From Gemmataceae bacterium (GTDB lineage Bacteria > Planctomycetota > Planctomycetia > Gemmatales > Gemmataceae): 32,200 nt of DNA. This document shows, piece by piece, positions 9,360 through 25,816 of the stretch. The notes beneath the pieces were generated by a model. It was not told the origin of the DNA. It saw nothing but the letters and a program-made list of their open reading frames with translations, and searched no databases. The DNA is taken from assembly GCA_025055215.1 (NCBI GenBank), contig JANWYO010000304.1, positions 1 through 32,200 of the forward strand, given 5' to 3'. Position 1 is the first letter of the stretch; each line of letters opens with the position of its first letter. The translations under genes were made by a program, and so were the position numbers.

Positions 9360-10577
9360 GTGAGAGTGAGTCCCTTGCATGTGACCGACCGATCGGCGTG
9401 CGTCGTTGAGTGGATTGGACGAAGATGGGTCGCGGATGGGGCAGCGCCCGCCGAACCGCGGGCCCTTCTTGGGGAGTTGGCCTGCGCGTTTGGTGCCTCC
9501 GGTGCGGGTTGGATGTGGATGCGATCTGCCCCCGTACCGACCTGTTGGGTCCATGCTGAGCGTACAGAAACTCCCGCGTCGCAGTGGCCTTGGGTCAACC
9601 AACCCTGGCTGTTGCCCTTGGCGCAGCACGAAACCACGGCGCTGGCGGTTCGTGCACCCGACGGGTGCCCGTTTCTCCTGGCAGCGGCGACGGCGGTAGG
9701 GAGGGAGGGGCTGGTTTGGCTGGAGGGCGGGTCGGAGGACTCTTGGACACCGCCGCAACGGCGTGCGCTGTGGCTGGCGGGCCAGACCCTGGCCGCACTG
9801 TGGACCCCGACGCCTCAAGAAAGGGCCGACCGTGTTGCGGATCGTCTGGCTGACGCCGCCGTGGGCGGCGCGCGGCTGGCCCATGCCTTCGACAACGTCT
9901 TGACCGGGATTCTCGGCTTCGCCGAGCTGGCCTTGAGCCAGACCCCGGCCGGCTCGGCCAGCCACCAGTACCTGAAGGAGGTGCTACGCGCCGGCCAAGA
10001 GGGGGCGCGACTGACGCAGCAGCTGCACGACTTGGCCCGCAGTGGCAGCTTCCCGCCGGGCAGCGCCTCGCTTGCCGAGGTAGTGGCCGAGCAGGTGCAG
10101 ACCGTCCGACCCCTCCTGGGGCCGCAAGCGCGGCTGCACTGGAGCGTGCCGGCAACACTCCCGCTGGCGGCGATCCACCCCGATGCCCTGCGGCTGCTCC
10201 TAGGTCAACTGCTCGAAAATGCCCGCGACGCGCTCCGAGACGTGGGAGAGATTAACGTCTCGGCCCGGGCCCTGGAGTTGGGCCAGCAAGATCGCTGGGC
10301 CTGGTTTGGCCGCCCGGTTCCGGGTCGTTACGTAGAGTTAGCCATTCGCGACACCGGGACGGGTTTGAATGCAGCTGTCCGACCGCGGCTGCTGGTGCAG
10401 CCGCTGGTCACCACCAAGCCCCGCCATCTCGGGTTGGGGTTGGCGATCGTGGCCCGGATTGTCCTTAGCTGCGGAGGTGGCCTGCGGCTGGAGGACAACT
10501 CCGAGGGCGGCACCCTGGTTTGCGTGCTGCTCCCCCTGGCCCGAACAACCTTAGGAATCACACGCCCCGCTTCGTAG
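9360..10577 (+). CDS. Soluble sensor histidine kinase
   Basis: The protein has 405 residues from a GTG at 9360; a second GTG at 9366 is equally possible, since neither has a strong ribosome-binding site. There is no transmembrane segment, so sensing is cytoplasmic. Residues ~30-150 form a Trp-rich alpha/beta region compatible with a degenerate GAF-like sensor. The H-box is LAHAFDNVLTGILGFAELAL with phospho-acceptor H175, of the HDFNN-type class. The ATPase domain has the N-box LLENARDALRD (N287), G1 box IRDTGTGL (D331) and G2 box HLGLGLAIVARIV (356-368). The response-regulator gene starts 25 bp downstream, so the two form an operon and a probable cognate pair. The signal sensed is not evident. 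Confidence 0.88.
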   Translation: MRVSPLHVTDRSACVVEWIGRRWVADGAAPAEPRALLGELACAFGASGAGWMWMRSAPVPTCWVHAERTETPASQWPWVNQPWLLPLAQHETTALAVRAPDGCPFLLAAATAVGREGLVWLEGGSEDSWTPPQRRALWLAGQTLAALWTPTPQERADRVADRLADAAVGGARLAHAFDNVLTGILGFAELALSQTPAGSASHQYLKEVLRAGQEGARLTQQLHDLARSGSFPPGSASLAEVVAEQVQTVRPLLGPQARLHWSVPATLPLAAIHPDALRLLLGQLLENARDALRDVGEINVSARALELGQQDRWAWFGRPVPGRYVELAIRDTGTGLNAAVRPRLLVQPLVTTKPRHLGLGLAIVARIVLSCGGGLRLEDNSEGGTLVCVLLPLARTTLGITRPAS

Positions 10578-10602
10578 ACCCCTTATAATCGGAGCTTGTC
10601 CC

Positions 10603-11262
10603 ATGCCGACCGCCCTGACCCGCGATAAAGACCCCGGCGGCTGGCACTCCACCGCCCACATCCGCATCCTGGTGTTGGACGACGACCCGGCCGTCTGTCG
10701 GCTTATCCAATCGACCCTGGCCGAGGAGGATTTCGGCGTCGATACGGTCTCAGACCCGGGCCAGATGGAGTCAGCGCTGCAAAACCCAGCCGGCTACCAC
10801 GTTATCATCCTCGACTACGTGGTGCCCGGCTTGAACTCGGACCAACTCCTGGCCTGGGTGAAACAATACCAACCCGATGCCAGCATCATCGTCGTCACGG
10901 CTTACCCGTCGGTGGATAGTGCGCTGAGTTGCCTCCGGGCCCACGCCCACGATTACATCACGAAGCCGTTCCAAATCGAGCACCTGCGGCGCGTGGTCGT
11001 TCGCTGCCTGGAAGAGAAGGGCTTGCTGCGCCTGTCGGAAGAAGCTCTCCGCGAAACCCTGGGCGCCACCATCCGGGAACGCCGCAAGGCCCTCGGTCTG
11101 ACCCTCGCCCAACTCTCGGATCGCACTGGCTTGTCGCTGGGTTACCTGTCCCAGATCGAGCTGGGAAAAAACTCGGCATCCATCGAGACGCTGTATCGGA
11201 TTTCGCTTGGGTTGGGGGTCAAGTTAGCCGACCTGTTCCACGCCGTGCAGACGAAGATGTGA
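10603..11262 (+). CDS. Response regulator with receiver domain fused to an XRE-type helix-turn-helix
   Basis: The ATG at 10603 has GGAG 8 bases upstream. Residues 20-135 are a CheY-like receiver: acidic pocket DDD (26-28), phospho-acceptor D71 (IILDYVVPG), T99 (VVTAYPS) and K121 (YITKPF). Residues ~150-213 are a Cro/CI (XRE)-type DNA-binding domain: IRERRKALGLTLAQLSDRTG, LSLGYLSQIELGKNSASIET, LYRISLGLGVKLADLF. Most DNA-binding response regulators use OmpR, NarL/LuxR, Fis or LytTR output domains; an XRE output domain is uncommon. The 219-residue protein follows the histidine kinase in an operon. It likely acts as a phosphorylation-switched transcription factor; targets are unknown. Confidence 0.9.
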   Translation: MPTALTRDKDPGGWHSTAHIRILVLDDDPAVCRLIQSTLAEEDFGVDTVSDPGQMESALQNPAGYHVIILDYVVPGLNSDQLLAWVKQYQPDASIIVVTAYPSVDSALSCLRAHAHDYITKPFQIEHLRRVVVRCLEEKGLLRLSEEALRETLGATIRERRKALGLTLAQLSDRTGLSLGYLSQIELGKNSASIETLYRISLGLGVKLADLFHAVQTKM

Positions 11263-12650: not shown

Positions 12651-12992
12651 ATGCATGAACTAAGTGTCATGCAGGAAATCCTGACCATCGCCAGCGAACA
12701 CGCTCAAGCCCACGGCGCGCGACAAATCTGCCGGCTGACATTGCGCGTCGGTGAATTGTCGGGTGTTTGCCCGGACGCACTGCGGCTGGCTTTCGCGGCG
12801 GCGGCCGGCGGCACGCCAACCGCCGCCGCCGAGCTGCTCATCGACTCCGTCCCGGTGCGGTGCTGGTGCGCCCATTGCCAACGCGAGTTCGCCCCCAGCA
12901 CCTCCTTTTACGAATGCCCCGATTGTGGGCAGCTTTCAGCGGACGTGCGTCAAGGGTGGGAGCTGGAAATCGCCCAATTGGAGATCGTCTAG
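12651..12992 (+). CDS. hypA: Hydrogenase nickel-insertion metallochaperone HypA
   Basis: HypA delivers nickel, with HypB, to the large subunit of [NiFe] hydrogenase. The ATG at 12651 gives the conserved N-terminus MHELSVMQEIL, in which His2 is a nickel ligand; upstream in-frame codons are rejected on this basis. The 113-residue protein has the zinc site as two CxxC pairs, C73/C76 and C89/C92 (CWCAHC and CPDC), and the helix VCPDALRLAFAAAAGGT typical of the family. The stop codon directly abuts the GTG of the hypB-hypF gene. It is the first gene of the operon. Confidence 0.95.
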   Translation: MHELSVMQEILTIASEHAQAHGARQICRLTLRVGELSGVCPDALRLAFAAAAGGTPTAAAELLIDSVPVRCWCAHCQREFAPSTSFYECPDCGQLSADVRQGWELEIAQLEIV

Positions 12993-15971
12993 GTGAGCGC
13001 CGAGGTAAGCGTGCCCGGACCTGGGACGGCGACGTCCGCGGTCCCGCGCGTGCTGACCATTGAGCGGGCCGTCCTGGGACGGAATGCCGAGCGGGCGGCA
13101 GAAAATCGCCGAGAATTTCGCCGCCGGGGCGTCCTGGTGTTGAACGTCGTGTCGGCTCCCGGCTCGGGAAAGACCGAACTGATCGAGCGGACGTTGCGCG
13201 ATCTTGGCGACCGGCTGCGTGCCGCGGTCATCGTCGGCGATCTGGCCACCGACCGTGACGCTCGCCGCCTCGCTCGCAGCGGCGCCCTCACCGTGCAGCT
13301 GACCACCGGGAGTATCTGCCATCTCGAAGCCGGCATGATCGCCCACGCCTTCGCCGAGCTTGCTCCCACCCCCCTCGACTTGCTGGTGATCGAAAACGTC
13401 GGCAACCTGGTTTGTCCCGCCGCTTACGATCTGGGCGAGGACTTGCGCATCGTCGTGATGTCGGTCACCGAAGGCGAGGACAAGCCACTGAAGTATCCCG
13501 TCATCTTTAAGACTGCCCAGGCGGTCGTGATCTCGAAAATCGACCTCGCCGATGTCGTGGGTTTCCATCGGGAAGAGGCTTGGGCCAACATCCGGGGTAT
13601 CGCCCCCCAGGCTCAGGTGTTCGAGCTGTCGGCCCGGACAGGGTCCGGTCTGGAGGCTTGGTATCACTTCCTGCTGACGCACGTTCACCGCACCGGTGCC
13701 GGCCGTGCGGCGCGACGCCTCGTCGTCCGAGGCCGGGTGCAGGGCGTGGGCTTTCGGCCTTACGTTTGCCGGCTGGCCATGAGCCTCGGGCTGGCGGGGG
13801 GTGTCCGCAACGTTGCCGAGGGAGTGGTCATCGAGGTCGAAGGGCCAGGGGCGTTGCTGAGCGAATTTCAGAATCGCCTGACGACGGAGGCCCCCGCAGG
13901 CGCGGTGATGGATGAAGTCTCGGTGACGCCTGTGGAGCCGACCGGGCGTGTAGGCTTCGAGATCGTACCGAGCGGACCGCCGGCGGCGCCGGCGGTCCGC
14001 GTACCGCCGGACCGGGCAACGTGCCCCGCGTGCCGGGCGGAGGTTTTCGCTGCCGATAATCGCCGCCGTCACTATCCGTTTACCAGCTGCATCGAGTGTG
14101 GGCCGCGCTACACGATAATCGAACGGCTTCCTTATGACCGGTCGGCTACATCGATGCGGGGCTTTACGCTCTGTCCTCCGTGCGCGACGGAGTACCATTC
14201 CCCCGCTGATCGCCGGTTTCATGCCGAGCCGAATGCCTGCCCGGCGTGCGGTCCGCGTCTAGCGCTTTGGGACAGCGCGGGACGAGTGCTCGCTGGGACG
14301 GACGAGGCCGTCAAGGCCGCGGCGGCGTTGCTGCGGGCAGGGCGTATTGTCGCCCTGAAGGGATTGGGCGGCTTCCAGCTCCTGGTCCGGGCCGACGATG
14401 CCGCCGCAGTCGGGCGCCTGCGGCAGCGAAAGCAGCGTCCCGGCAAACCCTTCGCGGTGATGGTCAGCAGCCTGGCCGAGGCGGAAGAATTGGCCTGTCT
14501 CACCGACACCGAGCGTCGCTGGCTGACCTCGCCCGAAAACCCGATCGTGCTGGTGACGGCTCGGCCCGGTGATCGCCTGGCGCCCAACGTCGCTCCGGGC
14601 CTGCGAAGCGTGGGACTTTTCCTGCCGACGACGCCGCTCCATCATCTCCTTCTGGCCGAAGTGGGCGTGCCCGTGATCGCCACCAGCGGCAACCGCGGCG
14701 GCGAGCCGATCGTCATCGACGAGCACGCCGCCATCCGCGACCTGGCCGGCATCGCCGACGCCTTTCTGGTACACGATCGGCCGATCGTTCGCCGGGCGGA
14801 TGACTCAGTCCTGAGGTTGATGGCGGGGGAGCCGATGGTATTTCGGCTGGCGCGGGGTTTTGCGCCGTGGCCGTTGCCATTCCTGGAGCGCCGGGCAACG
14901 CAGGCCGGGGCACCACCGTGCCTGGCGACGGGTGGGCATCAGAAGGTGGCTTTGGCGGCGTGGACGGGACACCAGGCCGTGCTGGCACCACACCTGGGCG
15001 ACATGGACGATGTGGCCACGCGGGTCGCCTTCCAAGGAGCGGTTCGCGATTGGGGCCTCTTGTATCATTTCGAAGCGGCGACCATCGTCTGCGACTTGCA
15101 CCCCGATTATTTCACCACGCGCTGGGCCCACACCCAGGGTCGGCCGGTGGTCGCCGTGCAGCATCATCACGCCCACGCCGCAGCGTGCGTGACCGAGCAT
15201 GGACTGTTTGGCCGACCCGTGCTCGCCTTTACCTGGGATGGCACAGGCTACGGCCCCGACGGCACGGTCTGGGGTGGGGAGGTCTTGGCACGCTCGGCTG
15301 AGGGCTGGCTTCGCCGAGCGTCGCTTCGACCTTTCCCGCTCCCCGGCGGCGAGGCGGCCATCCGCCACCCCAATCGCACCGCCTTCGGCTTGCTCTACGA
15401 GTGTCTCGGGGAGGACGGGCTTCGGCAGCACACGGAACTGCTCGATGCGCTGGGCTTGTCACAACAGGAAGCTCACCTCCTCGCCGCCATGATCCGACGC
15501 CGGCTGCAAACCCCCGCGACGACGAGCGTCGGCCGGTTGTTCGATGGCATCGCGGCGCTGCTCCTGGGAATCCGAGAGGTCAGCTATGAGGGGGAGGCAG
15601 CGATCGCCCTCGAGGCCGTCGCTGCCCCGGATGCCCCGGAGTGGTACCGTGTGTCCGCGGGAGACTGGCGGCCCATGCTCCGCGCGATGCTTGAGGATTG
15701 GAAAGCGGGCCGGGACGTGGGCGCCATGGCGGGTGCCTTTCATGCCGCCTTGGCCGGCTGGGCCAAGGCGGAGTCTGAGACACTGCCAGGATGGGACGTG
15801 GTCCTCGGCGGTGGCTGTTTTCAGAATCGGTTGTTGTTGGAGCGGACCGTGGCCCTGCTACGCGACGCCGGCCGGTCAGTTTATTGGCCCCGAATGATTC
15901 CGCCGGGCGACGGGGGGTTAGCGGCAGGGCAGCTGGCCACCTGTCTGCTGCAACCGACTTCACCTCGGTGA
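12993..15971 (+). CDS. HypB-HypF fusion: nickel-insertion GTPase joined to carbamoyltransferase
   Basis: One continuous frame of 992 codons encodes two complete maturation proteins. Residues ~20-231 are HypB: P-loop SAPGSGKT (54-61), metal-site C109/H110 in GSICHLEAGMI, ENVGNLVCPAAYDLGE with C141, and SKIDL (181-185). It lacks the His-rich or CxxCGC N-terminus of some HypB proteins. From ~242 HypF begins: an acylphosphatase domain (VVRGRVQGVGFRPYV), a zinc region with four CxxC pairs (344/347, 366/369, 394/397, 416/419), a YrdC-like domain (~435-620, RIVALKGLGGFQLLVRADDA) and a Kae1-like domain with VQHHHAHAAACVTEHG and LGGGCFQNRLLLER. HypF makes thiocarboxamide on HypE from carbamoyl phosphate. 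The joint is a short Gly/Ala/Arg-rich linker (THVHRTGAGRAARR) near base 13,700, with no stop or restart. GTG start, abutting hypA. Confidence 0.93.
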   Translation: MSAEVSVPGPGTATSAVPRVLTIERAVLGRNAERAAENRREFRRRGVLVLNVVSAPGSGKTELIERTLRDLGDRLRAAVIVGDLATDRDARRLARSGALTVQLTTGSICHLEAGMIAHAFAELAPTPLDLLVIENVGNLVCPAAYDLGEDLRIVVMSVTEGEDKPLKYPVIFKTAQAVVISKIDLADVVGFHREEAWANIRGIAPQAQVFELSARTGSGLEAWYHFLLTHVHRTGAGRAARRLVVRGRVQGVGFRPYVCRLAMSLGLAGGVRNVAEGVVIEVEGPGALLSEFQNRLTTEAPAGAVMDEVSVTPVEPTGRVGFEIVPSGPPAAPAVRVPPDRATCPACRAEVFAADNRRRHYPFTSCIECGPRYTIIERLPYDRSATSMRGFTLCPPCATEYHSPADRRFHAEPNACPACGPRLALWDSAGRVLAGTDEAVKAAAALLRAGRIVALKGLGGFQLLVRADDAAAVGRLRQRKQRPGKPFAVMVSSLAEAEELACLTDTERRWLTSPENPIVLVTARPGDRLAPNVAPGLRSVGLFLPTTPLHHLLLAEVGVPVIATSGNRGGEPIVIDEHAAIRDLAGIADAFLVHDRPIVRRADDSVLRLMAGEPMVFRLARGFAPWPLPFLERRATQAGAPPCLATGGHQKVALAAWTGHQAVLAPHLGDMDDVATRVAFQGAVRDWGLLYHFEAATIVCDLHPDYFTTRWAHTQGRPVVAVQHHHAHAAACVTEHGLFGRPVLAFTWDGTGYGPDGTVWGGEVLARSAEGWLRRASLRPFPLPGGEAAIRHPNRTAFGLLYECLGEDGLRQHTELLDALGLSQQEAHLLAAMIRRRLQTPATTSVGRLFDGIAALLLGIREVSYEGEAAIALEAVAAPDAPEWYRVSAGDWRPMLRAMLEDWKAGRDVGAMAGAFHAALAGWAKAESETLPGWDVVLGGGCFQNRLLLERTVALLRDAGRSVYWPRMIPPGDGGLAAGQLATCLLQPTSPR

Positions 15972-15983
15972 CGGAGGCCCATG

Positions 15984-16226
15984 ATGTGCCTGGGCGTTCC
16001 CGGTCGAGTCGTCGACATCGATCCGAGCGACGAGTTTCGCTACGGCGTTGTCGAATTTGCCGGGCTGCGGCGCAAGGTCTGCTTGGCGTGTGTCCCCGAA
16101 GCCCAGGCCGGCGATTACGTGATCGTCCACGCCGGTGTCGCCATCAGTCGAATCGATGCGGATGAGGCCCGGCGACTCCTTGACCAGTTGGCGGCAGAGG
16201 ACGCGGGGGAGGGGGAAATAACGTGA
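15984..16226 (+). CDS. hypC: Hydrogenase maturation chaperone HypC
   Basis: HypC works with HypD to carry the Fe(CN)2CO unit to the hydrogenase large subunit. Of two adjacent ATG codons I prefer 15984, because it yields [10 protein letters not shown] with the essential cysteine at position 2, and because the GGAGG at 15973-15977 lies six bases upstream. The 80-residue length is normal. Residues [20 protein letters not shown] and [20 protein letters not shown] fit the family beta-barrel and C-terminal helix. It starts 12 bases after the hypB-hypF stop and overlaps hypD by four bases (GTGA). Confidence 0.95.
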
Positions 16227-17335
16227 AATATGTCGACGAGTACCGCCAACCGCACCTCGCTCGCCGCCTGCTCGACCGGCTCAACCGCCTGGTCAGCCGT
16301 CCCTGGACCTTGATGGAGGTCTGCGGCGGGCAGACGCACACCCTGCTGCGCAGCGGCATCGACCGGCTGGTGCCGACTTCCCTGCGGCTGGTTCACGGCC
16401 CCGGCTGTCCGGTGTGCGTGACGCCGCTGGAGGAGATCGACCGCGCTCTGGCCATCGCCCGTCGGCCGGAGGTCATTTTCTGCTCGTTTGGCGACATGCT
16501 GCGGGTTCCCGGCAGCCGAACCGACCTGCTCCACGTCCGCGCCGAAGGAGGCGACGTCCGCCTGGTCTACTCGCCCTTGGACGCCGTGCGACTGGCCCAG
16601 GAAAACCCCAACCGCGAGGTGGTTTTCTTCGCCGTCGGCTTCGAGACCACCGCTCCGGCGACGGCCTTGGCCGTGCAGCAGGCGCGGCACCTGCGGCTGA
16701 CCAATTTCTCCTTGCTGGTGGCCCACGTCCGCGTGCCCCCGGCGTTAGAAATGATCCTGACTTCCCCTGGAAACCGGGTGCAGGCGTTTCTGGCGCCCGG
16801 ACACGTCTGCACCGTTATGGGGTTCGAGGAGTACGAAGAAATTGTGCGTCGCCACCGCGTGCCCGTGGTCGTCACCGGGTTCGAGCCGGTCGATCTCCTC
16901 GAAGGCATCCTGCGAGCGGTGCGTCAATTGGAGGGCGGCCGCGCCGTGGTGGAAAACCAATATGCCCGAGCGGTCCGCCGCTCGGGCAATCGCTCGGCCC
17001 GACGGATCATGAGCGAGGTGTACGAAGTCTGCGATCGGTCGTGGCGCGGCCTCGGCCTGCTGCCGCGGGGCGGCCTCCGCCTGAAGGCCGAATACCGCGA
17101 TTTCGACGCAGCCCAGCGCTTTCCAATGGCGACATCGGCGGCAGCGGAACCGAGCGAGTGTCGCAGCGGCGCCGTCCTCCAGGGCCTCATCCGGCCCGAC
17201 GAGTGTCCCGCCTTTGGCACGCGCTGCACCCCGGAACGGCCGCTGGGAGCCCCCATGGTGTCGGCCGAAGGAGCGTGTGCCGCCTACTGGAAATATGGCC
17301 GCGGCTTGGCCCCCGTAAGAGGAGGCCATCCGTGA
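16223..17335 (+). CDS. hypD: Hydrogenase maturation iron-sulfur protein HypD
   Basis: HypD carries a [4Fe-4S] cluster and, with HypC, assembles the Fe(CN)2CO group using cyanide delivered by HypE. The 370-residue protein starts at a GTG within the GTGA overlap with hypC. Conserved segments are [49 protein letters not shown] and the C-terminal cluster-binding region, where cysteines occur in [20 protein letters not shown] and [12 protein letters not shown]. All expected cysteine motifs are present. It overlaps hypE by four bases, consistent with translational coupling. Confidence 0.96.
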
Positions 17336-18387
17336 CCGAGCCGGCCGAATGGGGACTGAGCTGTCCCTTGCCCCACACCACCGGCGACCGCATCCTCTTG
17401 GCTCACGGCGAAGGAGCGGGGCTGACCCGGCGACTCATCCGACAACTGTTTCTCGAGGCTTTCGATAACGATTACCTCCGTCCGTTGGCTGATGCCGCGG
17501 TCCTGCCCCCCGTGGGCGAGCGATGCGTGGTGACGACCGACAGTTTCGTGGTCAGCCCGCTGTTTTTCCCAGGTGGTGACATCGGCCGGCTCGCCGTCCA
17601 CGGCACGATCAATGACTTGGCGGTCTGCGGCGCTGAGCCGTTGTACCTCTGCCTGAGCGTGATCCTGGAGGAGGGATTGCCGTTGGAGACTCTTCGCCGC
17701 GTCGTCGGCAGCATCCGCGACGCGGCTCGATCGGCAGGGATCCTGGTCGTCGCTGGCGACACCAAAGTGGTGCCACGCGGTGCCGCGGATCAACTCTTCT
17801 TGACGACGACCGGCATTGGCCGCCAACTTCCTGGGTGCGATTGGGGGACTCATCGCGTTCGGCCAAGCGATCGCCTGGTGCTGAGCGGTGCCGTCGGCGA
17901 CCACGGCATCGCGGTGCTCGCCGCCCGGGAAGGACTGGGGTTGGGAACGGCGGTCTCCAGCGACACCGCGGCGTTGCACGGACTGGTGGCGGCCCTGGTG
18001 GCGGAGGGGATCGACATCCACTTTTTGCGGGATGCCACCCGCGGCGGCGTGGCGGCGGTCTTGCACGAAATCGCCGAGGCGGCCGGCGTCAGCTTGGTAC
18101 TCGACGAAGCCGCTGTGCCCATCCACGAAGCCGTCCGGGGCGCCTGCGAAATCCTCGGGATTGACCCGTTGTACGTGGCCAACGAAGGAAAGCTTCTTGC
18201 CGTCGTGGCCGAGGCCGATGCCTCGCGAGCGCTGGCGGTCCTCCGCCGCCATCCGCTGGGAGCGGAGGCGGCGCTGGTGGGGGAGGTGACGGCCGCCAGC
18301 CCGCCGCACGTCTTGCTCCGTGGTTCGCTCGGCACGCTGCGGGTGCTGGACGAGCCGACCGGGGCGCCGTTGCCGCGCATCTGCTGA
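17332..18387 (+). CDS. hypE: Hydrogenase maturation protein HypE (carbamoyl dehydratase)
   Basis: HypE dehydrates the thiocarboxamide on its C-terminal cysteine, made by HypF, to thiocyanate and passes cyanide to the HypCD complex. The frame stays open far upstream within hypD, but the GTG at 17332 is preferred: it follows AGAGGAGG, forms a GTGA overlap with hypD and gives the normal 351-residue length. Seen in the sequence: an AIR-synthase/PurM-type fold with [71 protein letters not shown] and [18 protein letters not shown]. The protein ends in PRIC with the catalytic cysteine last. It is the final gene of the hyp operon. Confidence 0.96.
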
Positions 18388-18458
18388 CGGTTGGGCTTGC
18401 CGCACCGAGGGTGCCGCTGTAAACAGCCGACAGCCCAAGGACGTGCGTCGTGCCCACG

Positions 18459-18486
18459 GAAAATCGGCAAGGTTTGGCCGATTTTC
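18459..18486. terminator. Hairpin with T-rich 3' arm after the hyp operon
   Basis: Ten-base perfect arms (18459-18468 and 18477-18486, gaaaatcggc / gccgattttc) flank an 8-base loop. The 3' arm ends in TTTT, so it could terminate hypE transcription; the A-run in the 5' arm makes it potentially bidirectional. It lies 32 bp before the xerD start and could also sit in the xerD leader. Confidence 0.45.
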
Positions 18487-18518
18487 GGCCGACGAAGGTG
18501 TCAAGGAGGACCGTACCC

Positions 18519-19442
18519 ATGCCGTCCGACGCTGCCCGCCGTTACGCCGAACTGACCGACGACATCGTGGCGTTCCGCCATTACTTGCAGGCGGAGCGGG
18601 GACTGTCGGCCAACACGGTGCTGGCTTACGGTCGGGACCTCGACCGCTTCGCCCAATGGGTGGCCAGCGGCGGCTTGCCTAACTACCTGGCGCCGACCGT
18701 TCGAGAGTTGAGCCAATACATCAGCCACCTACGGGACGAACAGCTGGCACCGTCGAGCTGTGCCCGACATTTGGTGGCGTTGAAGATGTTCTACCGCTTC
18801 CTCCGCCTGGAGGAGCGCGTGCAACAGAGCGCGGTGGAACTGTTGAGCGCCCCGGCACTCTGGGAGCGGATCCCGCAGGTACTCAGTCCGGAAAGCGTGG
18901 AAAAGCTGCTGGCGGCCCCTCAGCCGACCGACCGTTTCTTCCTTCGCGACCGTGCCCTCCTCGAAACCCTCTACGCCACCGGCAGCCGCGCCTCCGAAGT
19001 CGTCGGCCTGCTCATGGCGGACCTGCACCTGGAGTCAGGTTTCTGCAAGTGCACGGGCAAAGGGCGTAAACAACGAGTAGTGCCGTTGGGTCGGCCGGCG
19101 ATCCAGGCCCTGCGCGAGTATCTCTTGGGGCAGCGGCCGGAACTCATCCGCGCTAATCCGGACGTGCCTCATGTGTTCGTTAGCCGCGGCGGCAAGCCCC
19201 TGAGCCGGGAAATGCTCTGGGCGTTGGTGAAGAAGTACGTTCGCCGAGCCGGCCTGAACGCCCGTGTCAGCCCGCATACCTTGCGGCACAGTTTCGCTAC
19301 CCACTTGCTTGCCGGTGGTGCCGACCTGCGCACCGTGCAGGAGCTTCTGGGACACGCCAGCATCCGCACGACGCAGCACTACACCCATGTGGACCGCAAT
19401 CGCCTCAAGGCGATCCACCAGCAGTTTCATCCCCGAGGCTGA
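18519..19442 (+). CDS. xerD: Site-specific tyrosine recombinase XerD-like
   Basis: Xer recombinases resolve chromosome dimers at the dif site. The ATG at 18519 follows AAGGAGGA at 8-base spacing, so longer upstream starts are rejected. The 307-residue protein has an N-terminal SAM-like core-binding domain (1-105) and a catalytic domain with the full set of residues: R157 (YATGSRASEV), K181 (GKGRKQRVVPLG), H253 and R256 (SPHTLRHSFATHLL), H279 (LGHASIRTTQ) and nucleophile Y288 (HYTHVD). The C-terminal LKAIHQQFHPRG is closer to XerD than XerC. The gene follows the hyp operon but looks like an independent housekeeping gene. I see no sign that it is an integron or phage integrase. Confidence 0.9.
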   Translation: MPSDAARRYAELTDDIVAFRHYLQAERGLSANTVLAYGRDLDRFAQWVASGGLPNYLAPTVRELSQYISHLRDEQLAPSSCARHLVALKMFYRFLRLEERVQQSAVELLSAPALWERIPQVLSPESVEKLLAAPQPTDRFFLRDRALLETLYATGSRASEVVGLLMADLHLESGFCKCTGKGRKQRVVPLGRPAIQALREYLLGQRPELIRANPDVPHVFVSRGGKPLSREMLWALVKKYVRRAGLNARVSPHTLRHSFATHLLAGGADLRTVQELLGHASIRTTQHYTHVDRNRLKAIHQQFHPRG

Positions 19443-23656: not shown

Positions 23657-24478
23657 CTAGTCCCAGACCGCCGCCTCCTCCCCGTCCAGTCGCAGCGTCA
23701 GGCATTTGGCACTGCCGCCCGCTTTGAGAAACTCGTCGAGCGGAGTGGCGATCGACCGATAGCCCCAGCGCTGCAACTCTTCCGCCATCCGCTCGCAACC
23801 GGTGTTGTGGATCACGGTCCGGCCCACGACCACGGCATTGCAGCCAAACCGGTGCGCCTCGGCCTCGGAAACCGTCAACAGCCGGGGGATGTGCGCTTGA
23901 AGGACTTTTCGGCCGTAGGCGTCAAAGGCCTCCGGGAACCAGATGGCTTCGCCGGGTGCCAAGGGGCAGAAGCAGGTATCGAGATGGTAAAAGCGGGGAT
24001 TGACCAATTCGACCGGCAAGACCTGCTTCCCGATGGCCTGGGCGATGTGCTGGTGGCCGCGCACGTCGCTGCGAATGCGGTAGCCGGCGAAGAGCGTCGG
24101 GCCACAGAAGAGGGCATCGCCCGCCCCCTCGAAGTAAACGCCCTCGGGGAGGTGCTCGACGGTGAAGCCGTGGGCTGCAAACCAGGCTTCGAAATGCGGT
24201 GACTCGCGGGCGCGGACGTCGTGACGGAAGCGGGAGCTGAAAAAACGTTGCCGGAAGACCAGGCCGGCGTTGGCGGTGAACACAAGGTCGGGCAAGCCGG
24301 GCTGGGGCGGCAGCAGCTCGACCGTCACCCCCAGGCTGACGAGAATGTCATGAAGCGCCTGCCACTGTTGCCGCGCCTCGCTGGCCACGCTGCCGCGGGA
24401 ACGGCTCATCCACGGATTGATCTCGTATTCGATGCCGTAGTAGTTAGGCGGGCACATCAGGATCCGTGGTTGCCGCAT
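23657..24478 (-). CDS. Arginine dihydrolase / dimethylargininase-like amidinohydrolase
   Basis: I chose the ATG at 24478, which has AGGAGG seven bases upstream. The 273-residue protein is a guanidine-modifying-enzyme fold: MCPPNYYGIEYEINPWM, PDLVFTANAGLVF, E117 in VYFEGAGDALF, H165 in FYHLDTCFCPL and nucleophile C259 in FLKAGGSAKCLTLRL. The catalytic Glu/His/Cys set is complete. The EINPWM and TANAG stretches are like those of the cyanobacterial arginine dihydrolase domain (ArgZ/AgrE), which converts arginine to ornithine, CO2 and two ammonia. The next gene upstream is the ornithine cyclodeaminase that forms the other half of that enzyme, which favours this over a dimethylarginine substrate. 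Substrate is inferred. Confidence 0.85.
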   Translation of the reverse strand: MRQPRILMCPPNYYGIEYEINPWMSRSRGSVASEARQQWQALHDILVSLGVTVELLPPQPGLPDLVFTANAGLVFRQRFFSSRFRHDVRARESPHFEAWFAAHGFTVEHLPEGVYFEGAGDALFCGPTLFAGYRIRSDVRGHQHIAQAIGKQVLPVELVNPRFYHLDTCFCPLAPGEAIWFPEAFDAYGRKVLQAHIPRLLTVSEAEAHRFGCNAVVVGRTVIHNTGCERMAEELQRWGYRSIATPLDEFLKAGGSAKCLTLRLDGEEAAVWD

Positions 24479-24562
24479 GAGGCACCTCCTGTCGCGGCCT
24501 GCCGGCAGACCTCGCATGCCACTGGCGCGGTCCTGGCGGCGGCCAAGCCGCCAGGACCACCT

Positions 24563-25816
24563 TCAGCTGCTCAACCCCAGCTCGGCCACCAGGACGCGCA
24601 AGAACGGCTCCGCGTCGGTGACGATGCCGACCGTCTGGATGCTGCCGCGATCGACCAGCTTCGTCACGGTGGCGGGGTTGATGTCGACGCAGGCGACGCG
24701 CACCCAGGCGGGGAGCAGGTTGCCGGTGGCGATCGAGTGTAACATGGTGGCCACCATCAGGGCGAAGCCGACGCCTCGGACGTGTCGCCGCATGGCCCGT
24801 TGGGCCTCCAGAATGTCGGTAATGACGTCGGGAAGCGGTCCATCATCGCGGATACTGCCGGCCAGAACGAAGGGAATCCCGCGGCGGATGCATTCATACA
24901 TGATGCCGCTCCGCAGCAGGCCGCGTTCCACCGCCGCCCGGATCGAGCCGAGCCGGCGAATGGTGTTGATGGCTCGCAGGTGGTGTTCGTGGCCCTCCTC
25001 CGCCGGCAGGCCGCGATCCAGACACACCCCCAGGCTGGTGCCGTAGAGCGCCTGCTCGATGTCGTGGCTTGCCAGGGCGTTGCCGGCGAAGAGCACGTCC
25101 AGAAAGCCGCCGCGGATCAACCGGCAGACGTGCTCCACCGCCCCGGTGTGGACCACGGCCGGGCCGAGGACAGCCAAAATCTTGTCCCCCGCAGCGCGGC
25201 AGCGGCGCATGGCCGCAGCAATTTCCCGGACCGTCACCCCTTTCGGCTTCTCGCTCGACACCGGGCTGGCCATGAACTCAAAAAGGTTCTGGCGATGCGC
25301 CGACTCGGCGGGGAAGACGCGCAGGCCCTGCCGGCCAACCACGATCCGGTCCCCTTGGCGCACCTCCGCCATCGGCACGCAGCGGGCCGTTCGGGCTTCG
25401 GGATCGACCAGGATGCCGCAGTCCATCTCCTGGTCCTCGACGTCGATCCATTCCCCGTTCAACCGCACCTGCGTCCGGTAGTTGGTTGTGCTGTAAAAAC
25501 CCTCGGGAAAGGCCCCGTCCATATCGGCCTCGACAACTCGGCAGTCGTGCGTGGCGACCGGCGTGGCACCGTGGTCGTGGATGACGTTGAGGATTTCCGC
25601 CAACGCCCGCTCGGACGCGGCCTGCACCTGGATGCGGGCATAGCTGGGGTCTTGCTGCCGCTGGCCAATGCGGATGTCCTTCAGCACATACGAACCGCCG
25701 CGGGTGAGGATCTCATCCAGAACTTTCGGCAACAGCAACGAGTCGATGATGTGACCTTGCAGTTCGACTTCCTCGACGAAGCCGGTCGGCGCCGGCGCGA
25801 TCGGTGCGTGGCTCAT
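24563..25816 (-). CDS. Ornithine cyclodeaminase, archaeal/cyanobacterial type (LOR/SDH-like, TIGR00300 family)
   Basis: The 417-residue protein belongs to the family first called LOR/SDH bifunctional-like, in which archaeal members and the C-terminal half of cyanobacterial AgrE/ArgZ form proline from ornithine. The N-terminal domain (EVELQGHIIDSLLLPKVLDE, SYARIQVQAASERALAEILN) is the Saccharop_dh_N-like part. The rest contains VHTGAVEHVCRLIRGGFLDV, LFAGNALASHDIEQALYGTS, GIPFVLAGSIRDDGPLPDVI and the C-terminal ACVDINPATVTKLVDRGSIQT, consistent with nicotinamide-cofactor binding. Length is normal. It starts in an ATGA overlap with the metallophosphoesterase gene and is followed after 84 bp by the arginine dihydrolase gene. 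Confidence 0.85.
   Translation of the reverse strand: MSHAPIAPAPTGFVEEVELQGHIIDSLLLPKVLDEILTRGGSYVLKDIRIGQRQQDPSYARIQVQAASERALAEILNVIHDHGATPVATHDCRVVEADMDGAFPEGFYSTTNYRTQVRLNGEWIDVEDQEMDCGILVDPEARTARCVPMAEVRQGDRIVVGRQGLRVFPAESAHRQNLFEFMASPVSSEKPKGVTVREIAAAMRRCRAAGDKILAVLGPAVVHTGAVEHVCRLIRGGFLDVLFAGNALASHDIEQALYGTSLGVCLDRGLPAEEGHEHHLRAINTIRRLGSIRAAVERGLLRSGIMYECIRRGIPFVLAGSIRDDGPLPDVITDILEAQRAMRRHVRGVGFALMVATMLHSIATGNLLPAWVRVACVDINPATVTKLVDRGSIQTVGIVTDAEPFLRVLVAELGLSS

Follow-up and report, generated by a model that had tools for sequence, protein, structure and literature searches.

An in-frame hypB-hypF reading frame in a Gemmataceae genome: a probable fusion of two [NiFe]-hydrogenase maturases

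INTRODUCTION

In [NiFe] cofactor assembly, HypB and HypF belong to different stages, and most studies have treated them as separate machines. The gene order of the locus described here has a counterpart on plasmid pRlvC of Rhizobium leguminosarum UPM791 (locus L179), where the order is hypABFCDE and the encoded domains are the same. There, hypB and hypF are neighbours that share a frame, with a stop codon and 3 nt between them, and two proteins are encoded; the reading frame described here lacks that stop and start. A precedent for joining a metallochaperone-type GTPase to another protein is IcmF (5cjt), in which a mutase and its GTPase chaperone share one chain. The fusion partner of the GTPase in IcmF is thus its client enzyme, whereas here HypB is fused to a different maturase.

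Structures have been solved for each family on its own. HypB of M. jannaschii (2hf8), A. fulgidus (2wsm) and H. pylori (4lps) carry the CHxnC motif and the dimer-bridging Lys, as does the protein described here, but have no C-terminal HypF. Conversely, the full-length HypF structures 3vth and 3vti, E. coli 3tsp and T. kodakarensis 4g9i share the catalytic and zinc motifs with our protein, but have no N-terminal GTPase. In A. fulgidus HypB, Lys-148 is needed for dimerisation and CHxnC is the metal site (PMC3262836). HypF carbamoylates HypE, with which it forms a 2:2 complex, and HypB works with HypA, likewise in a 2:2 complex (PMC12134894). The words "fusion" and "fused" do not occur in that 2025 review, and our literature search brought up no relevant report of a HypB-HypF fusion.

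Here, we analyse a window of 32,200 bases, the whole of one contig (C272) of a 347-contig Gemmataceae MAG that is 95.9% complete, in which hypB and hypF share a single open frame.

RESULTS

Positions 12993-15971 of the window form one stop-free open reading frame, which starts with GTG and encodes 992 amino acids, a HypB half followed by a HypF half. The HypB half (12993-13670, + strand; residues 1-226) matches the NCBIfam equivalog TIGR00073 over residues 22-230 with 268.4 bits, above the cutoff of 121.2, and is also supported by two alignments, A2 and A3. The HypF half (13716-15971, + strand; residues 242-992) is placed by Pfam, Foldseek and structure alignments with 3vth, 3tsp and 4g9i, and matches equivalog TIGR00143 over residues 244-982 with 721 bits, again above the cutoff (466). 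Pfam domains lie in the expected order: CobW/HypB at residues 49-210, acylphosphatase at 242-324, YrdC at 446-619, HypF_C at 641-735 and HypF_C_2 at 746-980, with the two HypF fingers between acylphosphatase and YrdC. The HypF half thus has its acylphosphatase, zinc-finger, YrdC-like and Kae1-like domains in the right succession. The original prediction, that HypB and HypF are joined in frame in one 992-residue protein and that each half is complete, is confirmed by the stop-free frame, the two equivalog scores and the domain order.

The frame sits in a tight co-directional cluster, hypA-[hypB-hypF]-hypC-hypD-hypE. The gene for the nickel metallochaperone HypA (12651-12992, + strand; Pfam HypA, 108 bits; translation MHELSVMQ...) ends in a TAG stop that abuts the GTG start of the hypB-hypF frame. 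Downstream, on the same strand, lie hypC (15984-16226; PF01455, 89.7 bits; TIGR00074), hypD (16223-17335; PF01924, 499.7 bits; TIGR00075) and hypE (17332-18387), the last identified by its AIRS and AIRS_C domains and its translation, which ends in an intact catalytic PRIC tail. Both hypC/hypD and hypD/hypE overlap at GTGA, and an SD-like sequence lies 6 nt upstream of the hypD start (GGGGGA) and of the hypE start (GGAGG). Nowhere else in the 347 contigs of the MAG did we find a second significant HypB or HypF match. Another contig of the same genome, C80 (locus L186, G000:C80, 3141-5080), has the gene for a [NiFe]-hydrogenase large subunit that carries the motifs RVCGIC and DPCLSC and whose best NCBIfam match is VhuA-like. 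A hydrogenase client that requires the functions of both HypB and HypF is therefore present. A hydrogenase maturation protease, detected by TIGR00072 and missed by Pfam HycI, adjoins the large-subunit gene; a small subunit was not located.

Each half of the protein aligns with solved structures of its own family. By Foldseek, the HypF structure 3vth_A is matched with a TM score of 0.93 (normalised to 3vth_A), and the HypB structures 2hf8, 2wsm and 4lps with scores of 0.89-0.95 (normalised to the target; about 0.94 for 2hf8 and 2wsm); IcmF is a weak match. An AlphaFold model shows two intact folds, with a mean pLDDT of 89.8 and a pTM of 0.78, residues 1-23 being of low confidence.

As predicted, the catalytic and metal motifs that were checked are kept on both sides. 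These were compared in A2 and in A3, which aligns the fused frame with 20 neighbouring hypB-stop-hypF same-frame loci, read through their single stop. The HypB half keeps the P-loop SAPGSGKT (A2 and A3) and the GTPase-domain CHxnC metal site (C109, H110 and C141), contains the SKID motif, and has an invariant K164 which, judged by motif, corresponds to the dimerisation lysine of HypB (Lys-148 of A. fulgidus). In A3, the HypF half keeps all four CxxC zinc pairs, QHHHAH, DGTGYG and GGGCFQN. The protein departs from only four of the columns that are invariant in the 20 homologues (at A55, S365, I367 and A665), and from a few that are nearly invariant; none of these is a P-loop Gly/Lys/Thr, CHxnC, zinc-Cys, HHHAH or GGG residue. 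Residues 1-22 contain no Cys or His, and an N-terminal Cys-motif or His-rich nickel site is thus absent. That site is found in some HypB only, so membership of the HypB family does not depend on it.

Two relatives within the family, G022 and G009, have the order hypA-hypB-hypF with separate hypB and hypF genes that overlap in different frames. Because the genes overlap in these close relatives, one small frameshift would be enough to fuse them. Measured between the same residues, HypB and HypF lie 2 nt further apart in the window than in G022 and G009. Their hypF ATG has no counterpart in the window, where the local alignment is short; its absence would fit decay after fusion. An origin by a single point mutation of the stop in a same-frame pair was considered and rejected, as no substitution at the junction gives both a stop and a usable start. 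Elsewhere in the family, hypAB is convergent with hypFCDE (G466, G467 and G496), or hypFCDE lies behind hydrogenase genes without hypAB (G465). A HypF tree groups the window with G022, G009, G035 and G465 (support 98/96); the HypB tree is less resolved. In G035, also a relative within the family, DUF1501 and PSD1 genes lie beside hypF (locus L155, 8190-10616), a setting that would suit a planctomycete.

Close relatives with separate genes and an identical flank had been named as evidence that would overturn the fusion. In part this applies, since G022 and G009 have separate genes in the same hypA-B-F order. These relatives are only ~50-60% identical, and so do not demonstrate that this assembly is wrong.

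A second fused frame was sought more widely. Of the entries for 183 loci, 75 place hypB immediately before hypF in the same orientation; 3 are the window itself, 5 repeat a place already represented, and none of the remaining 67 is fused. The 1,977 genomes searched (the search program's count) yielded no second case. Whole-genome searches of 59 relatives, 392 members of the phylum and 95 of the family gave no further match that spans the two halves free of stops, nor did four more sets. These four sets, of 289, 375, 378 and 376 genomes, are samples, not complete phyla, from the phyla of four other matches, and the last phylum searches used E-value limits of 1e-170 to 1e-180, at which divergent fusions could be missed. 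Several of the searched genomes carry hypB and hypF in the same frame with one stop between them. Neither the best 80 loci of a genome-contig search nor the plasmid records examined contain a fusion, and three plasmid loci that lack hypB/hypF annotation (L178, L180 and L181) are likewise not fused. In other genomes, the long open frames that precede HypF proved, once their sequences were inspected, not to be HypB fusions. A HypB-HypF fusion present in at least one other genome, and in that sense an established architecture, was not found among the genomes searched. Together with the literature search, the 1,977-genome search agrees with the earlier remark that no well-described HypB-HypF fusion is known.

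At the junction (13671-13721, + strand), residues 227-243 read LLTHVHRTGAGRAARRL and comprise the end of a HypB helix, a linker and the start of an acylphosphatase strand. In the AlphaFold model the last HypB helix covers residues 220-233, and residue 238 opens the first acylphosphatase strand. Of the short Gly/Ala/Arg-rich linker that had been proposed, the shortness stands, and these limits narrow it to only ~4-5 residues. The stretch that links the two cores, HypB and HypF, contains no stop codon and no in-frame ATG, GTG or TTG; the nearest such codon upstream of the HypF part is a GTG at 13617, within HypB.

Does this frame yield one working polypeptide? The frame could be real and yet the activities reside in separate polypeptides, if translation begins at a non-standard internal start (e.g. 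CTG at 13674) or the short linker is cleaved; alternatively, one half could be inactive. A GGAGG at 13652-13656, in the end of the hypB part, would suit internal initiation, and the hypB/hypF overlap in relatives suggests translational coupling in those organisms. Against this, the junction offers none of the usual start codons in frame, and the hydrogenase client would need both functions, for which no other copies were found. We regard separate products, or an inactive half, as very unlikely.

An assembly or sequencing error is a different matter. By this account, the hypB stop is masked, either by one extra base near 13671-13674 or by a larger misassembly, and the locus actually contains two overlapping genes, as in G022 and G009. 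The frame is known from a single MAG, and the genomes, loci and plasmid records searched yielded no other fusion. Positions 13671-13679 read CTGCTGACG; CTGTGACG at this place is an example of a stop-bearing alternative. Deletion of C13674 creates a GTGA overlap of the sort that joins hypC to hypD and hypD to hypE, and since this is the operon's own overlap type, a one-base error has a concrete form. However, when all 408 single-base edits across 13671-13721 were evaluated, only 4 produced two tidy genes, each by deleting one base at 13671-13674. HypB would then end four residues past its conserved Trp, shorter than at every relative locus compared, and the spacing between GGAGG and the GTG would be 16 nt, versus 6 nt at the two GTGA overlaps of the operon itself. 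A comparison of 56.6 kb of the same genome with the ORFs of relative G001 revealed no frameshift candidates, using a screen that detected 47 of 56 artificial one-base deletions (~84%). Overall, we judge error of one kind or another to be unlikely, and a single-base assembly error in particular to be possible but disfavoured.

The window fits its bin, with a GC content of 0.658 (mean, 0.657) and a tetranucleotide distance to the bin below that of other large contigs sampled. A chimera of two organisms was rejected, given that both GC and tetranucleotides match the bin and that the hypA-B-F order is known in relatives of the family.

DISCUSSION

We consider it probable that the frame at 12993-15971 is a genuine gene fusion, a singleton, that gives one bifunctional HypB-HypF protein. 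The ancestral operon would have been hypA-hypB-hypF-hypC-hypD-hypE with overlapping hypB and hypF, and a small indel may have put the two frames in register, with loss of the internal stop and start. The product would be a single chain of 992 residues and about 105 kDa. Its N-terminal HypB half would act as a GTPase and, with HypA, deliver nickel to the hydrogenase; its C-terminal HypF half would S-carbamoylate HypE, encoded next door with its PRIC tail, for cyanide synthesis. The fused chain might form a dimer that binds HypA through its HypB end and HypE through its HypF end.

It had been proposed that fusion could couple the Fe(CN)2CO and nickel stages, or else fix the stoichiometry of the two proteins. 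We find no support for coupling: the partners differ (HypE for HypF, HypA for HypB), and since no intermediate passes from HypF to HypB, the halves would not be expected to hand anything over directly. Co-synthesis at 1:1 is the simpler consequence of fusion and its most likely effect. We infer that the fused protein is made, that both halves are active, and that 1:1 co-synthesis rather than direct coupling is what the fusion mainly brings about. A more elaborate possibility, that the protein is a bifunctional HypB-HypF maturase, the first of its kind known, which holds the two activities obligately at 1:1, nucleates a supercomplex with HypA and HypE and so couples early and late steps of [NiFe] assembly, seems doubtful to us.

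The evidence for the fusion comes from one genome and one MAG contig, at the level of sequence, and no second fused genome was found. If real, such a natural fusion would mean that HypB and HypF can both work on one chain. It would allow a simple test for contact between the Fe(CN)2CO and nickel machineries, and could serve as a compact component where hydrogenases are produced in a foreign host.

Finally, the window contains other genes near the cluster. Upstream of hypA and on the same strand, 9360-11262 encodes a sensor histidine kinase and a Cro-type HTH response regulator, a possible regulator of the hyp operon. Directly 3' of hypE lies a gene for a tyrosine integrase (18450-19442; Phage_integrase, with a SAM-like N-terminus), which could mark a rearranged region or could instead be XerC/D-like. 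Further along, on the minus strand, adjacent DDAH-like and ArgZ/LOR-SDH-like (arginine dihydrolase-type) genes occupy 23657-25816.
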